A DNA stretch of 64,000 nt from NCBI GenBank assembly GCA_025351795.1, contig JANXVG010000029.1:1-64000 (forward strand). The letters run 5' to 3'. This DNA is from Salinibacterium sp. (GTDB taxonomy: Bacteria; Actinomycetota; Actinomycetes; Actinomycetales; Microbacteriaceae). Of this stretch, positions 9,992-37,964 are shown in pieces. The position numbers and the translations under genes were made by a program. The notes beneath the pieces are model-generated. The model was not told where the DNA came from. It was given only the letters and a program-made list of their open reading frames with translations, and did no database searches. The first letter of the stretch is position 1, and the number at the start of each line of letters is the position of its first letter.

Positions 9992-10441
9992 TTAGCCAGT
10001 AACTGCTGCGCAGGCCGCGGTGCCGGCCACCACTCCGCCGGAGTCGAGGATCTTGAACCAGTTGCCGGTACTCGACTTCTCGCTGATGCAGAATGCACCA
10101 GCACTGCTGGCAGTCACCGTGAATGCCGATGTGTTGTTCGATCCGGTGAAGCCGTAGGTGGAGAGGTCGGACGCCACGAGGTTGGTAGTGCCCGTCGAGA
10201 AGTACGCGCCGTTGTTGGCCGTTGCGTACGAGATGACCGCGATCTTGGCGTTGCCGAGGTCAGACTTGGCCGCGGCATCCTTTGCCTGGTTCTGCTGGCC
10301 GAGGAAGACCGGGATGGCGATCGCGGAAAGAATACCGATGATCAGAACGACGACAAGGAGTTCGATGAGAGTGAAGCCCTTTTCGTTGTTCTCGAGGCGG
10401 TCGCGCTTGGCGGCCATGGACTTGTGAATTGCAGAAATCAT
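9992..10441 (-). CDS. pilA: Type IV major pilin, paralog 1
   Basis: MISAIHKSMAAKRDRLENNEKGFTLIELLVVVLIIGILSAIAIPVFLGQQNQAKDAAAKSD.... Confidence 0.93.
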   Translation of the reverse strand: MISAIHKSMAAKRDRLENNEKGFTLIELLVVVLIIGILSAIAIPVFLGQQNQAKDAAAKSDLGNAKIAVISYATANNGAYFSTGTTNLVASDLSTYGFTGSNNTSAFTVTASSAGAFCISEKSSTGNWFKILDSGGVVAGTAACAAVTG

Positions 10442-10569
10442 GTGTGTTTCCTGTTCCGTCGAGAAAGAATGGACAGGAGGCCCCCCAGTACTACTGACCC
10501 CCACAGATGATTTTCCCGCCTTTCCGCCGCCCCGAACATCCCTCTTAGGGGGCACATCGGGCATAAACA

Positions 10570-10586
10570 CGCCCCCAAAACGAGGG
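10570..10586. promoter_or_regulatory. CCCC-N7-GGG box upstream of pilA paralog 1
   Basis: cgcccccaaaacgaggg; 129-145 nt upstream of the start; counterpart of the pilA2 box. Confidence 0.45.
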
Positions 10587-10623
10587 CTACCGTGCGCTCT
10601 TTAGACCATCCCTACAAAGAAAC

Positions 10624-10649
10624 GAGGGTGTCGCTATCGCGACACCCTC
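10624..10649 (-). terminator. Rho-independent-type terminator after pilA paralog 2
   Basis: gagggtgtcgc-tatc-gcgacaccctc: perfect 11-bp stem; T-rich GTTTCTTTG follows on the minus strand. Confidence 0.85.
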
Positions 10650-10663
10650 ATGATTCGGCTGGC

Positions 10664-11086
10664 CTATGCGACGTCAGTCGCGACGCAGCCTCCACTGGTG
10701 ACGCCGGTGGCATAGGTGGCCTTGAAGGTGGTTCCCGTTGCCGACGTAGCTTGGATGCAGAATCTGCTGGTGGTGGCTCCCAAGGTTATGGCGGTGCTCG
10801 TGACCGACGGGCTAGCGGCATAGCCCCACGTGGTGAGGTTCGCCAAGACAGACGTGTACGTGCCCTGATTCGCGGTTGCGTACGACACGAGGGCGACCTT
10901 GGCCGCGCTCACGTCGGACTTGGCTGCCGCGTCCTTAGCCTGATTCTGCTGGCCGAGGAACACCGGGATAGCGATCGCCGATAAGAGGCCAATGATCAGT
11001 ACCACAACGAGCAGTTCGATGAGCGTGAAGCCGGCGGCACCTCGCTGGCGGCGAGTCACGAGCGAGCGGTGAAGTCGAATCATCAT
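10664..11086 (-). CDS. pilA: Type IV major pilin, paralog 2
   Basis: MMIRLHRSLVTRRQRGAAGFTLIELLVVVLIIGLLSAIAIPVFLGQQNQAKDAAAKSDVSAAKVALVSYATANQGTY...; N-terminus near-identical to paralog 1. Confidence 0.93.
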   Translation of the reverse strand: MMIRLHRSLVTRRQRGAAGFTLIELLVVVLIIGLLSAIAIPVFLGQQNQAKDAAAKSDVSAAKVALVSYATANQGTYTSVLANLTTWGYAASPSVTSTAITLGATTSRFCIQATSATGTTFKATYATGVTSGGCVATDVA

Positions 11087-11214
11087 GTTCAGTTCCTGTT
11101 CAGTCAGACGTGCAGACAGAGATCCTCTAGTCGACTTCGTGACCCCCACCGTTCATGCTCCCGTACGAAGCAGACTCAGGTACATCCCTCAAAGTGGGGC
11201 AAAGACAGCAGAAA

Positions 11215-11230
11215 CGCCCCCAGAATAGGG
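11215..11230. promoter_or_regulatory. CCCC-N6-GGG box upstream of pilA paralog 2
   Basis: cgcccccagaataggg; 129-144 nt upstream of the start. Confidence 0.45.
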
Positions 11231-11237
11231 TGCTTGC

Positions 11238-13950: not shown

Positions 13951-15621
13951 CTAGGCGACGACTCTCAGGATTTCTTCGACGGATGTGTGGCCGAGCTTAG
14001 CTTTGGCCCACCCGTCTTCGCGCAATGTGAGCATCCCCTGCTGCCGCGCAATTGTCGCAATCTCCGAACTGGACGCTCGTGCGACAGCAAGTCGTTCAAT
14101 TTCTTCGGTGACCGTCATGACCTCGTGGATTGCGATGCGCCCCCGATACCCGGTTTTGGAGCAGTTCGTGCAGCCCACCGCGCGGAACAGCGACGGTGGT
14201 GCCTCGGCGGGGTCGTAGCCCACGCGCAGATTGACGAGCTCTTGGGCGTCGTGCACATACGGTTGCTTGCAACGATCGCACAGCCGACGAGCAAGACGTT
14301 GAGCAACCACGCAATCGAGAGCCGAACCCACCAAAAACGGCTCGATATCCATTTCGATGAGTCGCGTGATTGCGCTTGGGGCGTCGTTTGTGTGGAGCGT
14401 GGAGAGCACGAGGTGACCGGTGAGCGATGCTTCAATGGCGATCTGTGCTGTCTCGTGGTCGCGAATCTCGCCGAGCAGCACCACATCCGGGTCGGATCGT
14501 AGGATGCTGCGCAGAGCACTCGCGAAGGTGAGCCCCGCCTTAGGGTTCACCTGCACTTGGTTGATTCCCGCCATGCGGTACTCGACCGGATCTTCAACCG
14601 TAATGACGTTGATCTCAGGACGTGCCACCGCGTGAAGAGTTGTGTACAGCGTCGTCGACTTGCCAGAGCCGGTGGGACCGGTGACGAGGATCATGCCGTA
14701 CGGCTTCGTGTAGGAAGCCTTATACGCCTGAAAATTGCGATCGAGCAAGTGCAATTCTTCCATGCCCATGCTCGTGTTCGAGTTGTCGAGGATTCGCATG
14801 ACGACCTTCTCGCCATACACCGTGGGCAGGGTAGCCACACGCAAATCGATCTTGCGCCCACCATGGCTGACCGACATGCGGCCATCCTGCGGCTTGCGGC
14901 GCTCGGCAATGTCAATGTCGGCCATGATTTTGAGGCGCGATATCACACCATTTTGAATCGCCTTTGGAGCGGTCTGCATCTCGTGGAGCACACCGTCAAT
15001 GCGGTAGCGAACCCGCACTTCGTGTTCACCCGGCTCGATGTGAATGTCAGACGCGTGGTCCTGAATTCCCTGACTGATCAACAGGTTGACGAAGCGCACG
15101 ATCGGCGCATCATCTTCACGCGGCTCATTCTCGCTCGCCAAGGCGAGGTCGCGCGAGCCGCTCTCTTCCTCAAGAGCCGTGGTGAGTGAGGTGAGCTCCC
15201 CATCGGCGCGGTGGTAGCGATCGATGGCCGCGCGCAGGTCAGCGCGCTCGGCGACGACCGCCCGAGCGTGCATTCGGGATGCGGCGCGCACGTCATCAAG
15301 CGCGAATACGTCGCCGGGGTCGACCATGGCCACCATGAGCTGGTTGCCGACAATGCCGATCGGAAGTACTTCGTGCCGGCGGCACATCGCGGCGGGAACA
15401 AGCGCCACCGCCGCGCGATCGATCGGATAGTCGAGCAGCTCTACGTACGGCAGTCCAGCCTGGGCAGCACGGGCTGACGCCAGTTGTGCCGGAGTAACGA
15501 CTCCACGGTCGAGAAGCTGCAGGATTGCTTGCTCGTCATGGCTGCGGTCACCGACAATCGAGTCGAGATTTTCAATCGGAACTATTCCGCGCAGAATCAA
15601 AATTTCGGTAAGCGACGCCAC
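13951..15621 (-). CDS. pilB: Type IV pilus extension ATPase
   Basis: N-terminal MshEN-like region, SDIHIEPGEHEVRVRYRIDG, GPTGSGKSTTLYTTL, DVVLLGEIRDHETA, CDRCKQ...CTNCSKTGYRGR. Confidence 0.96.
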   Translation of the reverse strand: MASLTEILILRGIVPIENLDSIVGDRSHDEQAILQLLDRGVVTPAQLASARAAQAGLPYVELLDYPIDRAAVALVPAAMCRRHEVLPIGIVGNQLMVAMVDPGDVFALDDVRAASRMHARAVVAERADLRAAIDRYHRADGELTSLTTALEEESGSRDLALASENEPREDDAPIVRFVNLLISQGIQDHASDIHIEPGEHEVRVRYRIDGVLHEMQTAPKAIQNGVISRLKIMADIDIAERRKPQDGRMSVSHGGRKIDLRVATLPTVYGEKVVMRILDNSNTSMGMEELHLLDRNFQAYKASYTKPYGMILVTGPTGSGKSTTLYTTLHAVARPEINVITVEDPVEYRMAGINQVQVNPKAGLTFASALRSILRSDPDVVLLGEIRDHETAQIAIEASLTGHLVLSTLHTNDAPSAITRLIEMDIEPFLVGSALDCVVAQRLARRLCDRCKQPYVHDAQELVNLRVGYDPAEAPPSLFRAVGCTNCSKTGYRGRIAIHEVMTVTEEIERLAVARASSSEIATIARQQGMLTLREDGWAKAKLGHTSVEEILRVVA

Positions 15622-15701
15622 GTGTGTTTCACCCCCCAGTGTGCGGCATGCAAGAAAGATGCCACAGCGCTAATTTATCCCGGCGTGTCAACTCGGGCCA
15701 G

Positions 15702-15716
15702 TCCCGCAATTGGGGG
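15702..15716. promoter_or_regulatory. CCCC-N6-GGG-like sequence upstream of pilB
   Basis: + strand tcccgcaattggggg; on the pilB sense strand CCCCCAATTGCGGGA; 81-95 nt upstream of the start. Confidence 0.25.
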
Positions 15717-15743
15717 TGCTCGTGTGCTACGTACTGCGAGCAA

Positions 15744-15811: not shown

Positions 15812-18800
15812 CTAGTTGTACGTTCCTGGCGTATAGTCATCCGACGAGAAGCTGTCGAAGTCGACGAAACTGAGGTCGGCCTCACTGAACGTCGAGTCAT
15901 CAGTGAAAATGCGGTTCGGATAACGCTCCGCTTTCGCCTCTTCTGTCGCCTCCACCGAAACGTCGCGGTACTTTGCGAGTCCGGTGCCAGCAGGGATGAG
16001 CTTGCCGATGATGACGTTCTCTTTGAGGCCCCTGAGCGGGTCGGACTTGCCTTCCATAGCGGCCTGAGTCAGAACGCGCGTGGTCTCCTGGAACGACGCC
16101 GCCGACAACCACGATTCGGTTGCGAGAGATGCCTTGGTGATACCCATGACCTCCTGGCGGCCTTCGGCGGGCTTCTTACCCTCCATGACCGCGGCGCGGC
16201 TGACCGCCGTGAAACGAGCGCGGTCAACAAGCTCACCCGGAAGCAACTCGGTGTCACCGTGGTCAACGACCGTCACCTTACGAAGCATCTGGCGCACAAT
16301 GACCTCAATGTGCTTGTCGTGGATGGGCACACCCTGCGACCGGTAGACGCCCTGCACACCGTCGACGAGGTGTAGCTGCACCGCACGCACACCCTTGACG
16401 CGGAGAACTTCCTTCGGGTCGAGATTTCCGACGTGAAGCTGGGTGCCGAGTGCAACGCGCTGGCCGTCTTCGATCAGGAGCGTCGCGCGGCGAAGCACAG
16501 GATAGGCGATCGGCTCGTCACCGTTATCTGGAGTCAGGATCAGGCGACGAGCGCGATCCGTGTCTTCAATGGTGATGATTCCGTCAGCCTCGGCGATCGG
16601 GGAGGCACCCTTAGGGGTGCGAGCCTCGAACAGTTCGGTGACGCGCGGAAGGCCCTGGGTGATGTCGTCAGCAGACGCCACACCACCGGTGTGGAAAGTA
16701 CGCATCGTGAGCTGAGTACCCGGCTCGCCGATCGACTGGGCGGCGATGATGCCGACGGCCTCGCCGATGTCGACCAAGAGTCCGGTCGCAAGCGACCGAC
16801 CATAACAGACAGCACACACACCGACAGCAGACTCACACGTGAGCACCGAGCGCACCTTGACCTGCTCAACACCGGCAGCGATGAGCATTTCGATGAGCAC
16901 GTCGCCAATATCACTTCCGGCTTCTGCAACAACCTTGCCGGCGGCATCCTTAGCGTCCTCAGCGAGGCTGCGTGCGTACACCGAATTCTCAACGTTGGAG
17001 TCACGAACCAATTGGCCACTCGCATCCTTCGCCGCGATCGCCAAGTCAAGGCCTTTTGACGTGCCGCAGTCGTCTTCGCGGATGATGACATCCTGCGAGA
17101 CGTCGACGAGTCGACGCGTGAGGTACCCCGAGTCCGCCGTACGAAGAGCGGTATCTGCCAGTCCTTTACGAGCGCCGTGGGTGGAGATGAAGTACTCGGC
17201 GACGGTCAGGCCCTCCTTATAGGAGTGCACGATCGGGCGAGGAATGATCTCACCCTTCGGGTTCGACACGAGCCCACGCATCCCGGCGATTTGGCGCACC
17301 TGCATCCAGTTACCACGAGCACCCGACGACACCATTCGATTGATGTTGTTGTCTGCCGCGAAGTTCGCCTGCATCGCGTCGGCAACCTCTGTGGTCGCCT
17401 TGTTCCAGATCTCGATGAGCTCCTGGCGACGCTCGGCATCTGTCGTAAGGCCCTTGTCGAACTGGTCTTGTACCTTCGCCGCAAGCTTCTCGTAGGTGGC
17501 GATGATTTCTGGCTTGTTCGGCGGAGTCACAATGTCAGACAGCGCAACCGTCACACCGCTTCGGGTCGCCCAGTGGAACCCGGCATCCTTGATGCGGTCG
17601 AGCGCAGCGGCAACTTCAACCTTGGGGTAGCGCTCGGCCAGGTCGTTGACGATGGCCGAGATCTGGCCCTTGTCTGCGACAGCCTCGACATAGGGGTAAT
17701 CGGCAGGAAGTGCCTCGTTGAACAGTGCTCGACCGAGGGTCGTGTTCATGAGTACTGTCTTGCCCTGCTCGAAGCCCTCGGGAGCCTCGCCGGCTGCGAA
17801 GTGCAGGTTCTCGAGACGGATGCGCACCTTCGCGTTGAGGTCCAGCGAGTGCTGGTCGAACGCGAGGATTGCTTCTGCGACGGATGAGAATGCCCGGCCT
17901 TCGCCCGTAACGCTGTCCTTCAACGTGGTCAGGTGGTGCAGACCGATGATCATGTCCTGGGTGGGCAAGGTCACCGGGCGACCGTCTGACGGCTTGAGGA
18001 TGTTGTTCGATGCGAGCATCAGGATGCGCGCCTCGGCCTGCGCCTCGACGGACAACGGTAGATGAACCGCCATCTGGTCACCGTCGAAGTCGGCGTTGAA
18101 CGCCGCACACACGAGCGGATGGAGCTGGATTGCCTTGCCCTCGACGAGCTGTGGCTCGAAGGCCTGGATGCCCAAGCGGTGCAAGGTAGGCGCGCGGTTC
18201 AGGAGCACGGGGCGCTCGCGAATGATCTCCTCGAGCACATCCCAGACCTGCGGGCGTGAACGCTCGACCATGCGCTTAGCACTCTTGATATTCTGCGCGT
18301 GGCTGAGGTCGATGAGTCGCTTGATGACGAACGGCTTGAACAACTCGAGTGCCATCTGCTTCGGAAGTCCACACTGGTGCAGCTTGAGTTGCGGTCCAAC
18401 GATGATGACGGAACGACCCGAGTAGTCAACGCGCTTGCCGAGCAGGTTCTGACGGAACCGGCCCTGCTTGCCCTTGAGCATGTCACTCAGTGACTTGAGC
18501 GCGCGGTTGCCAGTACCCGTCACGGGGCGACCGCGGCGACCGTTGTCGAACAGCGCGTCAACGGCTTCCTGGAGCATGCGCTTTTCGTTATTCACGATGA
18601 TCTCGGGAGCACCGAGGTCGAGCAGCCGGCGACGGCGGTTGTTGCGGTTGATCACACGACGGTAGAGGTCGTTAAGGTCGGAGGTCGCGAAGCGGCCACC
18701 GTCGAGCTGCACCATTGGGCGCAGTTCCGGCGGGATGACCGGCACCACTTCGAGAACCATAGCGGCCGGCGAGTTGCCGGTCTGCAGGAACGAGTTGACC

Positions 18801-19693
18801 ACGCGCAGTCGCTTGATCGCGCGGATCTTCTTCTGGCCCTTACCGTTAGCGATCTGGTCGTGGAGCTCAATGCTCTCCGCGTCGAGGTCGAAGGCTTGCA
18901 GGCGCTTTTGGATAGCCTCGGCACCCATGTACGCCTCGAAATAGATGCCGAAGCGGTCTTGAAGATCGTGGAATACGGCATCCTCAGGCTTGAGGTGACC
19001 GACCTTGAGCGTGCGGAAGTCTTCCCAGACACGCTCGAGCTGGGCGATCTGCTCATCGAACGACTTGCGGGCCTGCCCCATCTCCTTCTCGGCGCCATCT
19101 TTCGTGCGACGCTTCTGGTCGCTCTTGGCACCTTCAGCTTCGAGAGCGGCAAGGTCTTCTTCGAGCTTCGAGAGTCGCTCTGCGATGCGAGCATCGCGCT
19201 GGCCCTCGAGTGTCTTGATCTCAAGGCGGAGCTCGTTCTCGAGACCGGGCAGGTCTGCATGACGGCCCTCTTCATCCACCGAGATGATCATGTACGCGGC
19301 GAAGTAGATGACCTTCTCGAGGTCTTTCGGCGCCATGTCGAGCAGATAGCCGAGTCGACTCGGCACACCCTTGAAGTACCAGATGTGCGTGACCGGAGCA
19401 GCGAGCTCAATGTGCCCCATGCGCTCACGGCGTACCGAGGACTTGGTGACCTCTACCCCACAGCGCTCGCACACGATGCCTTTGAAGCGCACTCGCTTGT
19501 ACTTTCCACACGAGCACTCCCAGTCCCGTGACGGACCGAAGATCTGCTCACCGAATAGGCCGTCTCTCTCTGGCTTGAGCGTTCGGTAGTTGATTGTCTC
19601 TGGCTTCTTTACCTCACCGTGTGACCAACGACGGATGTCGTCTGCGGTCGCGAGGCCAATCTTGATTTCGTCAAACGCGTGAACGTCGAGCAA
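15812..19693 (-). CDS. rpoC: DNA-directed RNA polymerase beta' subunit
   Basis: 1293 aa; [16 protein letters not shown] active-site motif; TTG start. Confidence 0.99.
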
Positions 19694-19762
19694 TGTCTTC
19701 TTCTCTCTTAGAAAAAAGCTTTGTAGCTAGTAAGCGGGGTCGCGACGAAGGGAGCTATCAGC

Positions 19763-22700
19763 TCAGATCTCATCAATGGACGATGATTCAAACCGCGTGG
19801 AGATATTGATGCCGAGCTCTTCCGCTGCACGGAAGACCTCGTCGTCCGTGTCGCGCAGGTTGACCGCAGAGCCGTCGGCCGAGAGAACCTCGACGTTCAG
19901 GCACAGCGACTGCATCTCCTTAATCAAAACCTTGAAGCTCTCGGGAATACCGGGCTCCTGGATGTTCTCGCCCTTGACGATGGCCTCATACACCTTGACG
20001 CGGCCCAGGATGTCGTCAGACTTGATGGTCAAAAGCTCCTGGAGCGCGTACGCGGCACCGTATGCCTCGAGCGCCCAGACCTCCATCTCACCGAATCGCT
20101 GGCCACCGAACTGTGCCTTACCACCGAGTGGCTGTTGGGTGATCATCGAGTACGGACCGGTCGAGCGTGCGTGGATCTTGTCATCGACGAGGTGGTGGAG
20201 CTTCAGGATGTACATGTAGCCCACAGACACGGGCTCGGGGAACGGCTCGCCGGAGCGGCCGTCGAAGAGACGGGTCTTGCCGGTTGAGTCAATCAGACGC
20301 TCACCGTCGCGGGTGAGGGTCGTCGAGTCGAGCAGACCCGCGATTTCCTCTTCAAGGGCACCATCGAACACCGGGGTGGCGACCTTGGTTCCTGGAGCAG
20401 CACTGAGCGCATCATCCGGAATCTTCGCGGCCCACTTCGGGTGCCCCTTGACCTCCCAGCCCTGCTTCGCGACCCAACCAAGGTGGGTCTCGAGCACTTG
20501 GCCGAAGTTCATACGGCCGGGAATGCCCAGTGGGTTCAGGATGACGTCGACGGGGGTACCGTCGGCGAGGAACGGCATGTCCTCTACCGGCAGGATCTTC
20601 GAAATAACACCCTTGTTTCCGTGACGACCAGCGAGCTTGTCACCAGCGGTGATCTTGCGCTTCTGGGCGATATAGACGACAACGCGTTGGTTGACGCCCG
20701 AGCCGAGCTCGTCGTCGTTGTCGGCGTTGAACTCCTTCACGGCAATGATCGTGCCCTCTTCACCGTGCGGAACCTTGAGAGAGGTGTCTCGAACCTCGCG
20801 GCTCTTCTCGTTGAAGATCGCGCGCAGTAGCCGCTCCTCGGCCGAGAGCTCGGTCTCGCCCTTGGGCGTCACCTTGCCGACCAAGATGTCGCCCGGGCGA
20901 ACCTCGGCACCGATGCGGATGATGCCGCGCTCGTCGAGGTCGGCGAGAAGCTCAGGGCTCACGTTCGGCAGATCGCGAGTGATCTCTTCCTTACCGAGCT
21001 TGGTGTCGCGCGCATCCACTTCGTATTCCTCGATGTGGATCGAGGAGAGCGTGTCGTCTTTCACCAGATTCTGGCTCAGGATGATCGCGTCTTCGAAGTT
21101 GTGACCTTCCCACGGCATGAACGCCACAAGGAGGTTCTTGCCGAGAGCCAGCTCGCCGTTCTCCGTCGCGGGGCCATCTGCAAGAACCTGACCCTGCTCA
21201 ACACGGTCGCCCGCGCTCACGATGACGCGGTTGTTGTAGCTCGTGCCCTGGTTAGAGCGGTCGAACTTGCGCAGATAGTAGTCTTGCGTGCCGCCCTCGT
21301 CCAGCTGAATGGTGACGACGTCGGCCGAGACCTCGGAGACGATACCCGCCTTGTCGGCCGTGATGACATCCCCCGCGTCGATGGCCGCGAAGCCCTCCAT
21401 ACCGGTTCCGACGAGCGGCGACTCGCTACGCAGCAACGGCACTGCCTGACGCTGCATGTTGGCACCCATGAGGGCGCGGTTCGCGTCATCGTGCTCGAGG
21501 AACGGGATGAGCGAGGTCGCGACGGACACCATCTGGCGCGGCGAGACATCCATGTATCCGATCTGCTCGGTGGGGATCAGGTCGACCTCACCGCCCTTCT
21601 TGCGCGCCAGAACGCGGGGCTCGGCGAAGTGCGAGTCCGGCGTAAGCGGCGCGTTGGCTTGAGCCACCACGAAGTCGTCTTCTTCACTCGCGGTGAGGTA
21701 GTCGATCTTCTCCGACACCTTGCCATTACTGACGCGGCGGTACGGGGTCTCAATGAATCCGAATGCGTTGATGCGAGCGAACGATGCGAGAGACCCGATA
21801 AGGCCGATGTTCGGGCCTTCCGGGGTCTCGATCGGGCACATGCGACCGTAGTGCGAGGGGTGAACGTCACGTACCTCGACACCGGCACGCTCCCGTGACA
21901 GACCGCCAGGCCCCAACGCACTCAGGCGACGCTTGTGGGTGAGCCCAGCGAGCGGGTTGTTCTGGTCCATGAACTGGCTCAACTGCGATGTTCCGAAGAA
22001 CTCCTTGATCGCCGCGACGACGGGACGCACGTTGATCAGGGTCTGCGGGGTTATCGCTTCGATGTCCTGCGTGGTCATGCGCTCGCGAACGACGCGCTCC
22101 ATGCGCGAGAGACCGGTGCGCACCTGATTCTGGATGAGTTCGCCGACGGCGCGGATGCGACGGTTACCGAAGTGGTCAATGTCGTCCACATCGAGACGCA
22201 CATCTACCTTCTTGCCATCGCGGATGCCCTTGATAGTCGAGAGGCTGTTGTCGTGGACCGTTACATAGGGGGCGGTCTCGTCGTGGAGGGCCACGAGGTA
22301 CTTGATCGTCGCGAGAATGTCTTCGATGCTCAGCACCGAGTTCTTCAGTTCGGCGTCGATGCCCAGCTTGCGGTTGATCTTGTAACGACCGACCTTTGCG
22401 AGGTCATAACGCTTCGGGTTGAAATAGAAGTTGTCGAGCAGGGCCCGTGCGGCCTCGGCGGCAACCTGCTCGCCCGGGCGCAGCTTGCGGTAGATGTCTT
22501 TGAGGGCCTCATCCTTGGTCAGGATGTTATCTTTCTCGAGGGTCAGGGCGATCGAAGGGAAGCCTTCGAACTCCGTGAGGATCTCCTCGCTCGTGAGGCC
22601 GAGAGCCTTCAAAAAGACCGTGACAGACTGCTTGCGCTTGCGGTCGATGCGCACGCCGACCTGGTCGCGCTTGTCGATCTCGAACTCGAGCCAGGCACCA

Positions 22701-23305
22701 CGGCTCGGGATGATGCGAGCCGAGTAGATGTCTTTGTCAGAGAGCTTCTCCGGGGCGCGGTCGAAGTAGACGCCCGGCGAGCGCACGAGCTGCGACACCA
22801 CGACACGCTCGGTGCCGTTGATGATGAACGTGCCCTTTTCCGTCATGAGTGGGAAGTCGCCCATGAAGACGGTCTGCGTCTTGATCTCACCGGTGAGGTG
22901 GTTCATGAACTCGGCGTTGACGTACAGCGGAGCCGCAAACGTCTTACCGCGCTCCTTGCACTCATCGATCGAGTACTTGGGCTCTTCGAGCTCCGGCCCG
23001 GTGAAGGAGAGCTGCATGGTTTCGCCGAGGTCTTCGATGGGAGAAATCTCTTCGAAGATCTCATCGAGTCCACTACGCGTCGGAAGGTCGGTGCGGCCTT
23101 GAGCCAGACCTTCCTCAACGCGCCTTTTCCAGATGTCGTTTCCGACGAGCCAGTCGAAGCTCTCGGTCTGCAACGCGAGCAGATCCGGAACCGTCAGGTT
23201 GTCGGTGATCTTTGCGAACGAAAGCCGCGATGCTCCGCGGCCGTTCTTAGGAGACACACTCTTTTTTGATGAACCGGTGGTGGACGCAGTGCGCGCAGCA
23301 GCCAA
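19763..23305 (-). CDS. rpoB: DNA-directed RNA polymerase beta subunit
   Basis: [38 protein letters not shown] (rifampicin region). TTG start at 23305 ([15 protein letters not shown]...) preceded by GGAGG; the longer ORF from 23623 reads through the leader. Confidence 0.98.
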
Positions 23306-23477
23306 GGAAATAACCTCCGTGGGCCCCGTCGGGCCCTCATGGTCAGCAGTGAACACTGACTGTCGGTAGTGAATATGCACCCCAGGACCTAATCGAAGGT
23401 CCACCCCGCCGCTATACTCGGGGCGCACCGGCCGTCCGCAATATGACGACACGAGTTGACTGGAAGCGCAAGGTTCA

Positions 23478-23507
23478 ACTATAGGACGACTCGGGCCCTG
23501 TTGTCCA
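23478..23507 (-). promoter_or_regulatory. Candidate sigma70-type promoter for rpoBC
   Basis: Minus strand TGGACA - 18 nt - TATAGT, about 170 nt before the rpoB start. Confidence 0.55.
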
Positions 23508-23537
23508 GTTGATTCTTGACCTCTTTCGAGGATTGAG

Positions 23538-24557
23538 CTATAAGGACCGGCTCGCACCGAGTGTTCGGGCTCTTTTCTTATACGCGAGCGCGGCGAGCGC
23601 TTCCCAGATGAGCCGATGCGCATTGTTGACCGTGAGGTCAGCGTGGTCGTATGGCGGACTCACCTCCATGATGTCGAACGCGACCACGTCGGTCTCGAGC
23701 ACGAGTCTGCGAACGATCCGCAAGAGGTCGATGGGGGTGAAGCCGCCGGGTTCTGGTGTTCCCGTCGCCGGGGCGAAGGCGGGGTCGAGCACGTCAATGT
23801 CGATGGAAATATAGATCTTGTCTGCGCGCTGTTTCGCAGCGGCGACCACATCGTCGAGCACGGCCTTGACTCCACGTTCCCAGAACTCCTGCATCATGAA
23901 GTGCCGCAGACCGTGGTCTCGCATCCACTTCTGGTCCTCCTCGCCCGGCCAGTAGCCACGAAGACCGACCTGAATGAAGTTCGGGCCCGGAATAGCCCCA
24001 GACTCGATGAGGCGGCGCATGGGCGTGCCGTGGCTCGCGAGGTTTCCTTCGATGATGTTCGCGGTATCGGCGTGCGCGTCGAAATGGATCATGGTGACAT
24101 TGCCGAAGCCGTGATACTCGGCCACGGCCGTCGCAGCCGGCCACGTGATCGAGTGGTCGCCGCCGATGATGACCGGGATGATGCCCCGACTCGACACGTC
24201 GTTCACGCGATCGTAGATGGCCTTCTTCGAGAGCTCCCACTTGCCGTGACTCGTGATGGCATCCCCGTAGTCCACGACTTCGAGATGATCAAACATCTCA
24301 ATGCCAAGATCGAGATGATAGGTGCCGGGGTCATATGAATCAGCCCGCAGTGCACGCGGACCGAACCTGGCACCTGGCCGATTGGTGGTGTTGTCGTCCC
24401 ACGGGGCACCGACGATCGCCACGTCGGGCTGCCATTCGTCGAGCTGCGACGGCTCGGTGAGGAACGGCCGCATGCCGAAGGTCGCTGGCCCAACATAGGA
24501 CGCAGCGTCGAGCTGGGCGCGGAGACCGGGCGGAATGTAACGCTGGGGTTCTTGCAT
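23538..24557 (-). CDS. speB: Agmatinase/ureohydrolase family protein
   Basis: [43 protein letters not shown] metal-binding motifs. Confidence 0.93.
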
Positions 24558-29339: not shown

Positions 29340-32300
29340 CTACGAGTGGTGCTTCCCGAGTCGGCGACGACCGAGAGAAGCCACCGTGAACATTCCGCCG
29401 AGCAGCAGTAGGGTGAATCCGATCCAGATGGCTGCGCCGCTCGCGAAGCCCGTCATGGCGAGCGTGCCCAGCGTGACGACTGTGGCCGAGTCATTCATAG
29501 TCAGCGTGGTCGGCGGCACACCCGGAAGTCGGCTGGTGCTGCTCTCGATCGCCGTGAGCGTCGCCGTGTTCACGAGCACCCTCGGCGGTACCGACGGGTC
29601 GACCATCACGGACAGCAGCACGTCAGGGGCATCCTGCAGTGCGCCGAGTGGGCGATCCAAGTCGCAGGTAACCGTGCCACCGTAGCCGGCGGCGTTGCGG
29701 TTGGTTACTGTACACGAGACCCAACCGGGCTGTCCCGTGGCAGGGTCAGCGGGGTTCACGCCGCTGACCTTGAGGGTCGACGGCACGACGTCGACAAGCA
29801 CGACCTGCTCGACTGCACCGAGGCCGTGGTTGCCCATGCTCATGCGGTAGGTGAAGGCCTGATCGGCACCGACGATCGCCTGGGACGCGGTTTTCGTGAG
29901 CCAGAGGCTGGATTTACGGCCCGCGGGGGTCTCACCACACGTCGGGTTCGACGGCGGGTAGTGCACCGTGAAGCTGGTGGTGGCGTTGATCGAGATCGTC
30001 ACGACCGCGTCAGCGCGCAGGCCGTAGCCGTAGGCACTCGGGTCGAGCTTGAGGTTCTGCCACTGGGGAGTCTCCCCTGGCAGCACGGGGCGCCAGCCCG
30101 GCCAGCCGATCCCGACGCCGTCGGCGTTGACCTCGGCTCCCGGCCACAGGATGCTGCCGGAGACCACGCCGCTCGCCGTGATCGGCAGGGTGTCGGTGTG
30201 GATCACGTTGCCGTTCACGTCTGCCCAGGTAATCGTCACGGTCTTGCCGACTACAGCTACGTTGTGGGCGTTGATCGAATAGTCGAGGTAGGGAGCATCC
30301 TTGACGCAGGTGGCCACAGCCGTTCCGTCGAGCCACTTCACGTCGACCCGCGCTTCGGCCTCGTCACCGGCTACCACCCGGGTCGTCGAGCTCGTGACCG
30401 CGACATTGACGATGGTGTCTTGCGCAACGAGCGGGTTCACGTGTGCTGTCACGCTAAACGGCACGGCCGCGTTCCCAGCGGCGAGCACTGGCGCGTAGTG
30501 GCACTCGAGCGTACCGCCGTAACCGTTGCTGTCCTTGCCGGTGACGGCACACGAGGTCCACACCGTCGAGTCGGCCGTGACGGCCGTGATCTTGAGCGTG
30601 GCGGGGATGGCGTCGATGACCTTCACGCCCGCGGCATCCACCGGTCCCACGTTGGAGACGGTGAAGCTGTAGTCGAAGGTGGTGTCACCCTGAACGACCG
30701 CCACCGATGGAGTCTTCTCGATGTGCAGTTGGCCGATGAGGAAGGTGTTCGTCACCGTGACGCTGGCGGGAGTGGCTGTTCCTGACTCGACGATCGTGAC
30801 CGTGCCGTCGGCGGGGCTGGATGCGCTCGAGACCGCGAGCCCGGCGTCCGTCTCGGTGACGGTGCAGGTGGCACCCGTGAGGATGCCGTCGATGGTCGCG
30901 CGGTAGTCCTTTGTGGGGTCGGCGTTCGGGCCGAGCACCTGGGTCGCGCCACTACCGAGGTCCACGGCCACGGCCGAGCCGTTGCTCTGGTAGGCACAGC
31001 TGACGGCCACCGTGAACGGTCCGGCGCCGAACTGGCTCGCGCCGGCACCGGTGCGCGTCTTGATGATCGTGAGTGACCCGGTCGTGAACGTGTTGGTGAC
31101 CGAGACGACGCTGGTTCCGTTCGCCGGGATGACTGCGGGAGACATGGCGCCGACGGTCGAGTTGTTAGCGCCGCCCTGAGCAGTCTCTACGACCGAGCAG
31201 GATGCCCCGGCGATGAGCCCCGTGACGGTCGCCGTGTATGCGTGGCCGGCATCGAGCGTCACGTAACCGGAGTTCGACAGCGGAATCGTCAGCGGGAGTC
31301 CCGTGGGTGACTTCTGCCAGGTACAGATGACCTGGGCGGTGAACGGGCCTGCGCCGAACGCCGCCTTGCCAGCACCGAGCACGGTCTTATCCACCTCGAG
31401 CGAGCCGATGGTGAACGTGTTCGTGATGCCCGCGTTAATGAGGCCTGCAACCTGCACTCCAACCGGGCCGGGGATCGTCACGCTGGAACTGGCACTGTGC
31501 GTGCTCGCGCCGCCGGCATTTGTTTCATCGATGGCACAGCTCGTGCCGACCGGGAAGACCGGGGCGAGCAAATGCGACTCGCCATTGCTGATCGTGAACG
31601 AGTCATCGAACAGCATCTGCGTGTTGTAGGTGCAGGCCACGTGGATCGTGAAGGGGCCAGTGCCGTACGCGGTGCCGCCAGCACCGTCGACCGTCTTGGT
31701 CACGGTTAGCTGGCCGCCGGCAAAACTGTTGGTCACGGCCGCCGTGTACTGCGCGGAGGTTCCGAGCGGGATAGACACGGCCTGGTTCTGGGTCACCGTC
31801 GTCGCGGTGGCTGAGCCCACCTTCACGCTGATCTTCGTCGCGTTGTCGGAGTTGGTCTCGCGCAGCCCGCACACCGCGGTGACGGGCAGGCTCTGCACAA
31901 GCTTCTGCTCGCCGTCTGCGAGCGTGAACGCTGCGTCAGCAGCGGCGAGCGGCACCGCGAGTGTGGTTGTGCCGTTGTTGACAGTGCACGCGAGAGTGAA
32001 GTCGAACGGTCCGAAAGCGCCGACCGTAGTGGTGTGGGTGACGGCCTTGGTCACCAGCAGCTCGGTCGTGCCGTAGCTGTTGGTCACCGTGGCCTGCTGT
32101 GCGGCGGGCACAGCCGCGCTTGAGGCCGCAGGCAGGGTGATGGTAACCTCGGCGGCCGGCGAGCCGGATGACGCCGCCGGCGAGTACGCCACTGAACTCG
32201 CGCCCGTCGTGTTCTCGACCACACGGCACACCGCCCCGACGGGTATGCCGTCGATGCGGCCGGTATAAGCGATTGCGTTGGTCGCGGCGAGGGTCAACAC

Positions 32301-35300
32301 CCCACCGGCGGGCAGCGAGACGGTCGCGCCCGAGACGGTGCAGCTGACGGTGACCTGGTAACTCGTGGGAGCGTACGCGGCCGTGCTGCCGGTGATCGCC
32401 TTCGTGACGGAGAGCGGGCCCGTGGCCAACTGCACGCCCGCTTTGACAGGCTCGACGCTGCGGCTCGCGTTGCCGGTTCCGAAGGTGGCGTAGGCGCCGA
32501 AGCTGTTCCAGGCCCTGGCATTGGTGACGGGAACCGAGACCGGGGCGCGACCATCGCCCGCCGCGGTCGTCGGCGTGTTGACGGTCGTGTAGGTCACGGA
32601 TACCGCGGCCCCGGGTGCCAAGTTGTGCGAAGCGGTTGCTGTGAAGTCGAAGACGACCCGGATGGCCTTCACCGAAGCGTAATCGCCTGTGAAGGCCTGC
32701 CAACTGGCTGTGATGTCACAGGTGGGGTCAGAGGTGAAGTTCGGGCATGGATTCGCGACCGTGGACACCTGGTAGGTGTATGAGGTTCCCGTGGACAAGT
32801 CGTCAACCGCCAACGCCAGACCGCCGGTGAAGATCGGGGCGAAGGCGGAGAGCCGAGCCGAGCCGGTCGTCAGGTACGTGTCGCCAAACTTGGGCAGCAC
32901 ATCCACGATCATCGCGGTGTCCGAGGCGATGTTGCCACCGTTGGTCACTTGGAGCTTCCAGAGGTCGGTCGCGCCGATCACGGTGTTGGCCGCACAGGGG
33001 CTGCGGTAAAAGCCTTGCGAGTCTGCGACGCAGGTGTTGGCCGGGTTAGTGACGTTAGCCGCTCCGCTCGTGGACACATTCGAAGCATCCACGTTGCCTT
33101 TGACGCCCTTGAACGTGCTGATCGCGGATGCCGAGATCGTCGTCACATCGTTGACCGTGTTACAGCGCGTGTTCGTGTTGGTGAGCGTCGAGCCCTTGCC
33201 ATTGCCGGAGGTGTTCGTGCAGGAACTGAGCGTGCGATCGCTCGAGACGCCGAACGAGTTGGTGATCGCTCCGTAGGTGGATATCAGGCCGGGCGCGACC
33301 TGCAGCGGCAGCAGGATCGTGTACTTCTCACCCGGGGCCATGCGCGAGCCGGCGGGCCAGTTGAAGGTGATCTTGCGAGTGGCCGAGTCATAGGCGACCG
33401 TAACGCCGGTGACAGGAAGAAGGCCGCCCGTCGAGGTCGTGTAGGTGATCTCGGCCGTGGGGTCGAAGAGCAGCGGTCCGCCGAAGCGCTGCGTGGCATC
33501 CACCGGAAGCGAGTCGATGACGACGGGGTTGTTCAGAAACCCGGTGCCCGTGTTGCCGAAGATGAGCGAGAAGTTGTCGACTGCGCCCGAGGTCGTCACC
33601 TTGTCGGTGGGGCGTTTTTCGACGTCGAGCGTGAAGGTTCCGGGGTCGAGCGCGATGCTCGTGGATCCCGTGGCGGTCGCGACGGCGAACGAATCGTTCG
33701 TCGAGGTCGCCGAGACGGGAGCCGCCACGCTGGACGGGAACGCGATCGCCGCACTCGTCGAAAGAAGGGAATCCCGCAGTCGCACCGTGTACTTGATCAA
33801 GCTCGACCAGGTCTGGGCTGGCGCGGTGGTGGAGAAGATGGTGCCATCGGCCTTGGAGAAGACGTAACGCAGGCCGGTGACGCCGCCGAGTGTGACGCCG
33901 GGAAGGGTCGGGACCATGCCGTTGGATGCCACCACTGTCGTTCCGGTGACCCACGTCGCCCCACCGTTCAGTTGGTAGTCGATGCGCAACCGGTTCGCAC
34001 CGGTGGGGATCGTTGTGACAGCGCCGAGCGAGCGCAGCCCGAAGGTATTCCAGAACACCGAGCCGTTGTCTTGAATGACGACCTCACGCGGCGAAACTGT
34101 GGAGTTGTTGTAGCCGCCGGTGAGGGTGGCGATGATGTCGTTCGCGCGGTCCTTCTCAAGGAGTGTCGTCGCGGACAGTGCCTTGGTGACCGAGACCCGG
34201 ATCGAGCCGGCGACGACGGACACGTCTGCGCTCTTCGAGTCGTAGCGGTTAGCATCGGCGAGCACGTTGTCCCAAATTTGGGTGAACGCGGAGTTCGTGA
34301 TCGTGGTCGGCGTAACGAGCGTGGTCGCGTCGCTGCGCAGGTACTGGCGCAGGCGTACGTCGAACTTCATCGCGACGCTCGCGCCTGACACTATCGTGCC
34401 ACCGTTGGAGGTGTCGGTGCCGGTGTACAGCACGCTCACGCCGACGACGTCGGTGAAGGTGGCGGCCACAGCGAGCGAGGCACTGTTGGCTGCGAGTGTC
34501 GTGGTTGTCGGCACGCCGTTGTTGTACTTCCACAGCGTCACGACCGACTTCGACAGGTCAATGCCGGAGTTGGTGGACGGAGTCAGCGTCACCTTGGTGA
34601 TGAGCAGGCGCTCGAACGGGTTCGTGGTGGAGTCATACGCGGCGGTCGCATATGGCGCGACGTCGTAGCCGCCGGCCGTGCCAACCGTGTTGTGCACACA
34701 CGTCGTGATGGTGGTCGTGGTGCATGGCATCACGTCGGAAACCCTCAAGAACCAGGCGCGGGCGAGAGAAGTGTTCGTGGCGGTCGTTGTGAACGACGTC
34801 GTCGGGTACCCGGTAGCCGCGACATCCAGCGGGTTGGGTACAGCGAGGATCGGGGTAGTGCCGGTGCCGGCGATCTTGGCGAAGCCCACGTTCGGCGAGT
34901 TGTCGATGATGGTGATCGTGTCGCTGCCATCGAGGGTGAAGGTGCCGGGCGTTCCCGTTGCCGTGAGACGAGCCGAGTTGGACGCGATGCCGGCGGCGGC
35001 GTTGAGCACGGTGGACTCGGTGATCCACGGGGTGGAGTGCCCCGCGACATCCCGCAGCTTGTTGCGCAGCTGGAAGACCAGGCTGACCGGGCGTGAACTC
35101 GGGCCGCTCGCGACGCCGGATCCCACGGGCGGAGCCAGCGGATCGGTGGAGCGCGGGGTGGCCCACTCGGCGAAGGTGACGCGCACACCGACTGTTGAGC
35201 CGGCCTGGGGGCCGGTCAGGGTATAGCCGGTGAACCTGCCGAGACAGTTGGCCGCGGTCGCACATGCGTTCACGTCGACCCAGCTGGTGCCATCGAACAG

Positions 35301-37778
35301 TTCGACCTTCGTCACCCGGTCGTAGGCGATGAGCGGATCATCAGTTGTGGTGATCGGCTTGATTCTGATGAGATCGAACGACTGGAAAATCGTCTGGGAG
35401 ACGGCAGCGGTGGCATCCACCGGGTCGGCAACGACGACGCTCGAGTAACCGTCGATCTCGGTGCCCCAGCTCAGCATCGCGTCGCGCTGCTGGCTGGACT
35501 GCGAGTTGACCGTTGCCGAGCCGTTCACGAGCACCCAGGTTTTGTCGAACATCAGGCCGCCGGAGCCAGCGGGAATGGTCTTGACGACGGCGACAGAGCT
35601 ACGGGCGGGCGAGTCGGCCTCGACGGTCTTTGGCTCACCGTTGAGAGTGACGATGCCGATGGCGTGAGCGGTCGCGGTGTTCGAGTAGGTGACGGGAGCG
35701 CCGTCCGTTGCCGTGGAGTCCATCGAGCCGCGCATCGTGGAGCGGGCCCGGAACGAGATGTAGGGGCGCACGGTCGTGCCGAGACTGTAGCCGTTCGCGT
35801 TCGCGAACAGAAAACGCAGACCGATGATGTCATCGAGTGGGGCCGGGAGCGCCGCGGAGTAGCTCTGCGCAGCACTCGTGGCGTCGACGACGGCGAGCTG
35901 GTGCCAGATCGTGTCGGTGGTCTGGTAGCTCACGGTGAGCGTCGATCCGAGCGGCACCTGGGTAGGTGCCACGGCGACGGCGTTGAATGCGCGCCAGTAG
36001 TCGGTGGTCGAGGTCGTCATTGAGTCCTCGACCACGATGCTCGTCGGCGACACGTAGCCCGAGTCGCTCGATGTGGTCGCGGTGAGGCGCACGAGGGAGC
36101 GACCTCCCGCGGGAATCGGGGAGGCCGGTGTTACCGTCTTGTTGAGGTCCACCGAGACGGCGGGAGACATCACGATTAGTGAGGCGGTCGGGTACTGCGA
36201 TATAGCGGGCCCGGCGTCGTTATAACCGTCGACCTGCGCCTTGTTGGTGAAGGTCTTCGTTCCCGTCGCGGCGTCGACGGTTGCGGCGTCCACCGCAACA
36301 CGGAACGGTACAGATGCCGTTGCCCCCGTCGCGATCGAGCCGGAGTAGACGATCGAGAAGCCCGTTATGCGCTGCCCGGTGGCAAGCGCGGGGAGCGCGG
36401 GGAAGCCGCTTGCGCTTGTGAAGTCGGGCGAGGTTGGGGCTGTGCCGGTGGTGACGTACCAGGTGATCGCGGCCGAGGTCGCGCCAGCTGGCCAGCTTGA
36501 GCCGCTCACACGGAAGCCGTCGAAGACGATGTTCGCGTCAAGCAGGGTGTTAGTGGCGGGCTCGGTGATCGTCAGGGTGGACAGCACGCCATTGGACGCG
36601 TTCTGGCCAGTGATCGCCACGATCGAGCCGGTGCCGGCAGGGATGCGCGCGCCCGTGAACGTGGTGCCACCGATGACCTTCGAGTCGAGGCCATGGACGA
36701 TATAGGAAGCAGTAGTCGCCTTGGACACGGATGTCTGGCCGGGAACCACGACGGTGCCGGTGATGGCGGCCGTGAAGGTCGTGCCCGTGACGAGTGTGAC
36801 GCCGCTCGTGCGCTGCGCCGCTCGCTGTGCGAGAGTGAGGGCGACCGAACCGACGCTTCCGTTGGCGGCGATCGTTACGCCCGTGGATGACGTGAAGATG
36901 ACCCTGAGGCCGGTGACCGAGCCGGGGGTGACCGTCGCATCGAGCGCAGGAGAGACAGCAGCTGCGCCGTTCACCCAGGCGCCATTCACCCAGGCATCCA
37001 CCTGGATGCGGTCCGCGCCAGTCGGGTAGACGACAGTACCGAAGCCCGTGAGGTTCACTCCCTCGAAGAAGTTACCCGCCGCCGTGGGGTCTGTCGGGGC
37101 GAGAAGCGTGAGGCTCTGCGCGGCAGCGTTCGAGGTGTTCGCGGTCGTGAGCGTCATCGCGGACGCCTCACCCACCTTGTACTGCGTAGGCGAAGGAGTC
37201 CAGGTTGCGCCGAGGGTCGTGTCGACGACGTAGGGGATCGTGACCGTGACATCCCGCGTCGCCTGCGCGGTGGGTGCGTTCGGGGATGACGCGACAGCCG
37301 TGTTGGTGACGGGAACGCCGTTGGATGCCCAGTCCGGGCCGAGGGTTCCCGGCACGGCCATCGTGACCTGCACGGAGTAGCCGGAGCCGCTCTGTAGTCC
37401 TACGCCGCCGCCATCGAGCGGCTTGAGAAAGCTGACGGTTAGGGTGCGGTTGTTGGTTCCGCCCCAGCTGAAGCTCGAGGGCCCGCCAGTGACGGCAACC
37501 GTGTTGCTGAGCGTGAGTGCATCGAACTGTGGCGGGATGACGTCGACGAGCGTCGCATCCGGGCAGTCGTCGGGAGAGCAGTTGACGGTCACCGTGTAGG
37601 TGAACGAGTCCCCGGGAACGACGTTGGGTTTGGTGACCGCTTGGGTGATGGAGAAGACGGATGTCGGGGCGGCATTGGCGGGCACGGCGACGAGCAACGA
37701 CCCCACGAGGCCGAGGAGTACTGCCCCCAGGGCGGCGAGAGAGAAGGCGCGGCGTGACCGGCGTGCGGATCCGAGCAT
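29340..37778 (-). CDS. Giant (2812 aa) secreted/cell-wall surface protein with DUF11/isopeptide-type and DUF5979-like repeats and LAMTG sorting-like signal
   Basis: Signal peptide MLGSARRSRRAFSLAALGAVLLGLVGSLLVAVPANA; many Thr/Ser-rich Ig-like repeats; C-terminal LAMTG + TM + RRRLGKHHS. Confidence 0.93.
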   Translation of the reverse strand: MLGSARRSRRAFSLAALGAVLLGLVGSLLVAVPANAAPTSVFSITQAVTKPNVVPGDSFTYTVTVNCSPDDCPDATLVDVIPPQFDALTLSNTVAVTGGPSSFSWGGTNNRTLTVSFLKPLDGGGVGLQSGSGYSVQVTMAVPGTLGPDWASNGVPVTNTAVASSPNAPTAQATRDVTVTIPYVVDTTLGATWTPSPTQYKVGEASAMTLTTANTSNAAAQSLTLLAPTDPTAAGNFFEGVNLTGFGTVVYPTGADRIQVDAWVNGAWVNGAAAVSPALDATVTPGSVTGLRVIFTSSTGVTIAANGSVGSVALTLAQRAAQRTSGVTLVTGTTFTAAITGTVVVPGQTSVSKATTASYIVHGLDSKVIGGTTFTGARIPAGTGSIVAITGQNASNGVLSTLTITEPATNTLLDANIVFDGFRVSGSSWPAGATSAAITWYVTTGTAPTSPDFTSASGFPALPALATGQRITGFSIVYSGSIATGATASVPFRVAVDAATVDAATGTKTFTNKAQVDGYNDAGPAISQYPTASLIVMSPAVSVDLNKTVTPASPIPAGGRSLVRLTATTSSDSGYVSPTSIVVEDSMTTSTTDYWRAFNAVAVAPTQVPLGSTLTVSYQTTDTIWHQLAVVDATSAAQSYSAALPAPLDDIIGLRFLFANANGYSLGTTVRPYISFRARSTMRGSMDSTATDGAPVTYSNTATAHAIGIVTLNGEPKTVEADSPARSSVAVVKTIPAGSGGLMFDKTWVLVNGSATVNSQSSQQRDAMLSWGTEIDGYSSVVVADPVDATAAVSQTIFQSFDLIRIKPITTTDDPLIAYDRVTKVELFDGTSWVDVNACATAANCLGRFTGYTLTGPQAGSTVGVRVTFAEWATPRSTDPLAPPVGSGVASGPSSRPVSLVFQLRNKLRDVAGHSTPWITESTVLNAAAGIASNSARLTATGTPGTFTLDGSDTITIIDNSPNVGFAKIAGTGTTPILAVPNPLDVAATGYPTTSFTTTATNTSLARAWFLRVSDVMPCTTTTITTCVHNTVGTAGGYDVAPYATAAYDSTTNPFERLLITKVTLTPSTNSGIDLSKSVVTLWKYNNGVPTTTTLAANSASLAVAATFTDVVGVSVLYTGTDTSNGGTIVSGASVAMKFDVRLRQYLRSDATTLVTPTTITNSAFTQIWDNVLADANRYDSKSADVSVVAGSIRVSVTKALSATTLLEKDRANDIIATLTGGYNNSTVSPREVVIQDNGSVFWNTFGLRSLGAVTTIPTGANRLRIDYQLNGGATWVTGTTVVASNGMVPTLPGVTLGGVTGLRYVFSKADGTIFSTTAPAQTWSSLIKYTVRLRDSLLSTSAAIAFPSSVAAPVSATSTNDSFAVATATGSTSIALDPGTFTLDVEKRPTDKVTTSGAVDNFSLIFGNTGTGFLNNPVVIDSLPVDATQRFGGPLLFDPTAEITYTTSTGGLLPVTGVTVAYDSATRKITFNWPAGSRMAPGEKYTILLPLQVAPGLISTYGAITNSFGVSSDRTLSSCTNTSGNGKGSTLTNTNTRCNTVNDVTTISASAISTFKGVKGNVDASNVSTSGAANVTNPANTCVADSQGFYRSPCAANTVIGATDLWKLQVTNGGNIASDTAMIVDVLPKFGDTYLTTGSARLSAFAPIFTGGLALAVDDLSTGTSYTYQVSTVANPCPNFTSDPTCDITASWQAFTGDYASVKAIRVVFDFTATASHNLAPGAAVSVTYTTVNTPTTAAGDGRAPVSVPVTNARAWNSFGAYATFGTGNASRSVEPVKAGVQLATGPLSVTKAITGSTAAYAPTSYQVTVSCTVSGATVSLPAGGVLTLAATNAIAYTGRIDGIPVGAVCRVVENTTGASSVAYSPAASSGSPAAEVTITLPAASSAAVPAAQQATVTNSYGTTELLVTKAVTHTTTVGAFGPFDFTLACTVNNGTTTLAVPLAAADAAFTLADGEQKLVQSLPVTAVCGLRETNSDNATKISVKVGSATATTVTQNQAVSIPLGTSAQYTAAVTNSFAGGQLTVTKTVDGAGGTAYGTGPFTIHVACTYNTQMLFDDSFTISNGESHLLAPVFPVGTSCAIDETNAGGASTHSASSSVTIPGPVGVQVAGLINAGITNTFTIGSLEVDKTVLGAGKAAFGAGPFTAQVICTWQKSPTGLPLTIPLSNSGYVTLDAGHAYTATVTGLIAGASCSVVETAQGGANNSTVGAMSPAVIPANGTSVVSVTNTFTTGSLTIIKTRTGAGASQFGAGPFTVAVSCAYQSNGSAVAVDLGSGATQVLGPNADPTKDYRATIDGILTGATCTVTETDAGLAVSSASSPADGTVTIVESGTATPASVTVTNTFLIGQLHIEKTPSVAVVQGDTTFDYSFTVSNVGPVDAAGVKVIDAIPATLKITAVTADSTVWTSCAVTGKDSNGYGGTLECHYAPVLAAGNAAVPFSVTAHVNPLVAQDTIVNVAVTSSTTRVVAGDEAEARVDVKWLDGTAVATCVKDAPYLDYSINAHNVAVVGKTVTITWADVNGNVIHTDTLPITASGVVSGSILWPGAEVNADGVGIGWPGWRPVLPGETPQWQNLKLDPSAYGYGLRADAVVTISINATTSFTVHYPPSNPTCGETPAGRKSSLWLTKTASQAIVGADQAFTYRMSMGNHGLGAVEQVVLVDVVPSTLKVSGVNPADPATGQPGWVSCTVTNRNAAGYGGTVTCDLDRPLGALQDAPDVLLSVMVDPSVPPRVLVNTATLTAIESSTSRLPGVPPTTLTMNDSATVVTLGTLAMTGFASGAAIWIGFTLLLLGGMFTVASLGRRRLGKHHS
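29448..29462 (-). other. LAMTG cell-wall sorting-like motif (LAxTG type)
   Basis: Codons for L-A-M-T-G followed by hydrophobic segment and basic tail GRRRLGKHHS. Confidence 0.75.
30735..32428 (-). repeat. Five tandem DUF5979-like protein repeats inside the giant surface protein
   Basis: Recurrent pattern (L)x(V/I)xKxxxGxxxxxFGxGPFTxxVxCxYQ...CxVxETxxGG...VTNTFxxG. Confidence 0.75.
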
Positions 37779-37893
37779 GACGAGAATTCCCCCACTTTCG
37801 CGCCACGACGAAGCGCACGCGCGTGGTAACGCGCGTAAAAAGTCTCGGGTGACACGTCACACGTTAGTAGATCGAACTATTCGGGGCACATTC

Positions 37894-37920
37894 CCCAGAA
37901 TGGGGCGCCCCGAAATAGGG
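37894..37920. promoter_or_regulatory. Two adjacent CCCC-N6-GGG boxes upstream of the giant surface protein gene
   Basis: + strand ccccagaatgggg and ccccgaaataggg, 116-142 nt upstream of the start. Confidence 0.45.
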
Positions 37921-37964
37921 GGCACCCGGTATATCGCTTCGAGAACTGCTAAGCTAAGCTCACC

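Follow-up and report, generated by a model that had tools for sequence, protein, structure and literature searches.

A short box was identified upstream of the two type IV pilin genes pilA1 and pilA2, the assembly ATPase gene pilB and the gene for a giant surface protein in 64,000 nucleotides of Salinibacterium sp. DNA (this whole stretch is called the window). On the sense strand the box reads CCCC-N4..8-GGG, a short spacer with a CCCC run on one side and a GGG[A/C/T]NT half on the other. Sequence comparison gives good support to a conserved operator for surface-attachment genes, and it is probable that the box is a protein-bound operator of these genes, the identity of the protein being left aside. 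The pilA genes, pilB and the giant gene all lie on the minus strand of the window:

9992..10441, minus strand: pilA1 CDS, type IV pilin, N_methyl (Pfam PF07963)
10664..11086, minus strand: pilA2 CDS, type IV pilin, N_methyl (Pfam PF07963)
13951..15621, minus strand: pilB, assembly ATPase, T2SSE and MshEN (Pfam)
29340..37778, minus strand: giant surface protein of 2812 aa, DUF5979, DUF7601 and DUF11 (Pfam)

Further pil genes in the window encode PilC and a second T2SSE-type ATPase (both by Pfam), the latter PilT-like by position. Named relatives of pilB put the window within Microbacteriaceae, close to Glaciihabitans, Galbitalea and Salinibacterium. rpoB was found upstream of the pil cluster, with a 1293-aa ORF, which we take to be rpoC, between them (window 15812-23623). 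In the interval between pilA2 and the pilA1 promoter, GAGGGTGTCGCGATAGCGACACCCTC at 10624-10650 resembles an intrinsic terminator of pilA2.

Seven copies of the box were located at these four genes:

10572..10586, minus strand: pilA1 distal box (box 1), sense CCCTCGTTTTGGGGG, kept in relatives as ...CTGGGG
10540..10552, minus strand: pilA1 proximal box (box 2), sense CCCCCTAAGAGGG, then ATGT
11217..11230, minus strand: pilA2 distal box (box 1), sense CCCTATTCTGGGGG
11186..11199, minus strand: pilA2 proximal box (box 2), sense CCCCACTTTGAGGG, then ATGTACC
15703..15716, minus strand: pilB box, sense CCCCCAATTGCGGG, then ACTGG, conserved in most Microbacteriaceae pilB promoters
37908..37922, minus strand: giant-gene distal box, sense CCCCCTATTTCGGGG, 15 nt from the proximal box
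37893..37905, minus strand: giant-gene proximal box, sense CCCCATTCTGGGG, then AATGTGCCCC

All box sequences quoted in the first-pass annotation are present, some of them one base away from the positions given there. The single box it had reported for each pilA gene is real, and each pilA gene has a second, promoter-proximal box that was overlooked. Its placement of the boxes about 115-145 nt from the start codons does not hold throughout. The distance from GGG to start is 114 and 129 nt for the giant gene, 98 and 129-130 nt for pilA, and 81 nt for pilB. The pilB version, described there as weaker, turned out to be the best conserved of all.

In same-genus (Salinibacterium-like) genomes the box was found again upstream of the pilA, pilB and giant-gene homologs. 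The pattern match at the proximal box of the giant gene spans 37861-37905, and a similar box is present at the giant homologs of G004, G007, G008 and G024; distant giant homologs in several genomes had no clear box. Beyond the genus, the pilB box was observed in Galbitalea, Glaciihabitans, Microcella, Homoserinibacter, Leifsonia, Amnibacterium, Agromyces, some Cryobacterium and others, and many of these genera also have the box upstream of pilA. Some Cryobacterium pilB copies are without it, and it was not found in Demequina. A score of at least 14 was reached by 81% of 69 pilB upstream regions and by 0.2% of dinucleotide shuffles, figures that are descriptive, since the scoring was designed with the sequences already in view and partly from those scored. 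At that threshold neither the coding controls nor the reverse strand gave a match (0% each), nor did any of 11 loci from other families. Lack of conservation at pilA orthologs, named in advance as grounds against the box, was not what was observed, as the pilA double box is kept across the family Microbacteriaceae.

The frequency of the motif is of little help. Bare CCCY-N6-RGGG occurs 5 times in the window against 3.8 expected, a count reached by 38 of 100 shuffles, and thus shows no excess over chance. With an A/T-rich core there are 7 occurrences against 0.76 expected, and no shuffle reached 7, the core having been picked after the sites had been seen. A loose pattern gave 6 matches in the window's own genome and 3 in the control. 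With the bare motif at background level and the core chosen post hoc, the case rests on conservation and fixed geometry and not on frequency.

Specificity was analysed by scanning 27 genomes with two profiles: R1, a sequence-only profile of the pilB and giant-gene promoters, and R2, which covers the pilA double box. R1 matched the pilB promoter in 25 of the 27 genomes and ranked it first in 22, with giant-gene promoters next; in the window it finds pilB (15667-15718, 24.7 bits) and the giant gene. Strong R2 scores were obtained at pilA promoters only, with weak or partial matches in a few genomes and no match in G009, which has neither pilB nor the pilA double box. The R2 scores in the window were 60 bits for pilA1 (10496-10589; E 3.9e-16 in the window's genome) and 40.8 bits for pilA2 (11141-11234; E 3.7e-10). 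R1 was partly built from sequences that it scores; many of its matches belong to this training set, and the telling matches are those beyond it. One untrained target was a secreted protein with a CAP domain (CAP/SCP-like, named by eye), whose promoter has the box and a -10 in several relatives. The best palindrome, AGTCCCC-N6-GGGGACT, and GCGTAGCGT were found at CAP-protein promoters in several relatives, a related site occurs in G021, and the loci with the box are L242-L245, L250, L251 and L261. Weaker profile matches (among them L246-L249, L252, L254-L257 and L260), most of them inside genes, were set aside as chance. The matches were therefore not spread at background frequency without bias to surface genes, the outcome on which the first-pass annotation would have given up its proposal; they lay mainly at pilB and pilA, then at giant-gene and secreted-protein promoters. 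In G019 and G014 (L088 and L086) a giant-type promoter stands before a peptide of about 35 residues with a single membrane span (MTTTAEPLGIVIAVVLFAIVVTAMILGIRRSV in G019).

The geometry of the promoters is nearly constant. From the GGG of the box it is about 24-27 nt downstream to a predicted -10 hexamer (TAGCGT/TAnnnT), which puts the GGG next to the -35 region. Among 61 selected pilB promoters, TA[G/C]CGT or a similar sequence comes 24-26 nt past the GGG (23-27 nt were allowed in the search), and the same distance, 24-26 nt, was found at giant-gene promoters. When 39 pilA promoters were anchored on the proximal GGG, A was present at +26 in 33 and T at +30 in 32, and a G run is conserved at +38 to +42, a pattern that fits a -10 hexamer followed by a putative start site. 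The distance between the two pilA boxes (GGGG to GGG, 24-40 nt allowed) is 34 nt in 31 of the 39 promoters; in two others it is 24 nt, shorter by one helical turn. Tandem boxes 15 nt apart were seen by eye at some pilB promoters as well as at the giant gene of the window. The following -10 elements are proposed, while that of pilA2 is poor:

10510..10515, minus strand: putative pilA1 -10, GAAAAT, with A at GGG+26 and T at GGG+30, after the 39 pilA promoters
15672..15677, minus strand: putative pilB -10, TAAATT, 25 nt after GGG, after the N24-26 of the 61 pilB promoters
37861..37866, minus strand: putative giant-gene -10, TAACGT, 26 nt after GGGG

The spacer between the C run and the G run varies from 4 to 8 nt, which is unusual for a rigid dimer site.

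A gene for a NarL-type response regulator is divergent from and adjoins pilB in 17 of 27 genomes. The pilB-linked regulator forms one supported clade, and the strict clade is present in 21 of the 27. It is missing from G009, together with pilB and the pilA double box. No member of the strict clade was found in G016, G023 or the window's own genome, and both G023 and the window do have boxes; the window's own genome has only a distant homolog of 51% identity on contig C49. In the wider family, matches at E <= 1e-50 were obtained in only 23 of 147 genomes, while the box occurs in many genera. The regulator gene is itself preceded by a conserved TGACACCC-N4-GGGGG in some 20 genomes, and also in further genera; in several genomes a -10-like hexamer was seen by eye at a distance of about 15-18 nt from it. 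This similar box, in several genomes near a -10, suggests that the regulator gene may be autoregulated, and its position is more like repression than activation. Judged from these patterns, there is a little less than an even chance that the pilB-linked regulator is the factor that binds the box.

It is also possible, though unlikely, that another conserved regulator binds, for example a paralogous response regulator (C77:74595-75248 in the window's own genome). The paralog is 43-46% identical to the pilB-linked regulator and is present in all 27 genus genomes, even where the strict pilB-linked clade is missing. It has, however, no linkage to pil genes, and no box was seen upstream of the copies examined. 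Other LuxR-type genes of the window's own genome had no convincing upstream boxes.

RamA of Corynebacterium glutamicum is known for carbon metabolism. A role at the box for a RamA-like GAF-LuxR regulator was considered, as RamA binds CCCC and GGGG motifs, given as A/T/C-CCCC-N and A/T/C-GGGG-N (PMC4847777). The RamA regulon is similar in being actinobacterial and in having sites of short C and G runs (PMC4847777). Furthermore, a full-length RamA relative is present in the window's genome, and in eight relatives a TACCCCCGAAAGTTGGGAAT box stands directly before the start codon of the RamA-like gene, a further likeness to the RamA regulon. Despite these similarities, just 10 of the 27 genus genomes were found to have the gene, and G003, G007, G024, G019 and others have boxes without it. 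A close RamA homolog is missing from most genomes with boxes, and the candidate was rejected as quite improbable since its distribution does not follow the box. The RamA-like gene (L184-L191) is apparently divergent from an acyl-CoA synthetase-like gene, and a conserved CCCCCGAAAGTTGGG box abuts its start codon, which suggests autoregulation.

Two known response-regulator systems were compared with the box. DosR/DevR of Mycobacterium tuberculosis is a NarL-family response regulator with converging half-sites, GGGACT-N2-AGTCCC. It shares the protein family with the candidate, and a GGGACT like that of its half-sites occurs at pilB and CAP promoters, whereas the half-sites of the Microbacteriaceae box diverge (AGTCCCC-N6-GGGGACT). 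A DosR-like regulator was rejected because it is missing from at least 11 genus genomes with boxes (G001, G005, G006, G010, G017 and others), and a literature search on GGGACT/DosR half-sites found nothing. In Gram-negative bacteria pilA is under the two-component control of PilR/PilS, where PilR belongs to the sigma-54 activators and has a different motif. Pilin expression governed by a two-component system would be a shared feature, here with a candidate regulator only; the candidate is of the NarL type and the predicted -10 is of the sigma-70 type.

The near-constant distance to the -10 could also indicate that the box is part of the core promoter for an alternative sigma factor, with no separate regulator. 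The usual spacer between -35 and -10 is 15-19 nt, and a GGG 24-27 nt from the -10 is too far away for a -35 hexamer. With a second pilA copy 34 nt upstream and a -10 that is an ordinary TAnnnT, this explanation is very improbable.

The first-pass annotation had left it between a transcription-factor box and an RNA element. CCCC and GGG hairpins in the leader RNA would be consistent with C runs and G runs able to pair, the variable loop length of box 1 and the long pilA leaders. Compensatory change on both sides was, however, seen in 0 of 120 cells, the spacing of the pilA boxes is fixed at 34 or 24 nt, and the window had no Rfam match. Since the predicted -10 lies downstream of the boxes, and at a near-constant distance, the boxes would be outside that transcript. 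The helix-scale spacings, the constant downstream -10, the absence of covariation and of an Rfam match argue for a protein beside the -35 and make an RNA element scarcely credible. The transcription-factor alternative is accordingly the part of the earlier proposal that is favoured, and the proposed co-regulation of pili and the giant adhesin is supported for the box as a DNA element, as far as sequence can tell. The pilA leaders (window 10441-10510 and relatives) share G runs and CCTGTCC, with which the Shine-Dalgarno region (GACAGGA/GAACAGGA) might base-pair. A hairpin sequestering the Shine-Dalgarno sequence was plausible in single folds, but the consensus fold gave no pairs.

Returning to the box as a protein-bound operator, the bound protein is likely an activator. 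A dedicated transcription factor would dock at the box, at pilA on two boxes about three helical turns apart, and control surface-attachment genes. From its place on one face of the DNA it could recruit RNA polymerase to promoters with a weak -35, as in class II activation. Such recruitment may switch pilA and pilB together with the giant protein and also, in some species, with the secreted CAP-domain protein, the regulator gene being possibly controlled through its own upstream box. A broader reading is rather doubtful, namely a family-wide, pilus-linked two-component regulator that recognizes divergent GGG half-sites across an elastic spacer, with the sites set in helical phase, and that acts as master switch not only for type IV pili but also for giant adhesins and further secreted proteins of the surface.

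Searches of the open-access literature found no regulator or operator described as controlling type IV pili in Microbacteriaceae. With an operator conserved across the family and a candidate for the protein that binds it, pilus control in Microbacteriaceae can be tested directly. The box connects two further proteins with the pilus programme, the uncharacterised giant surface protein and the secreted one with a CAP domain, and provides a motif for finding more surface genes.
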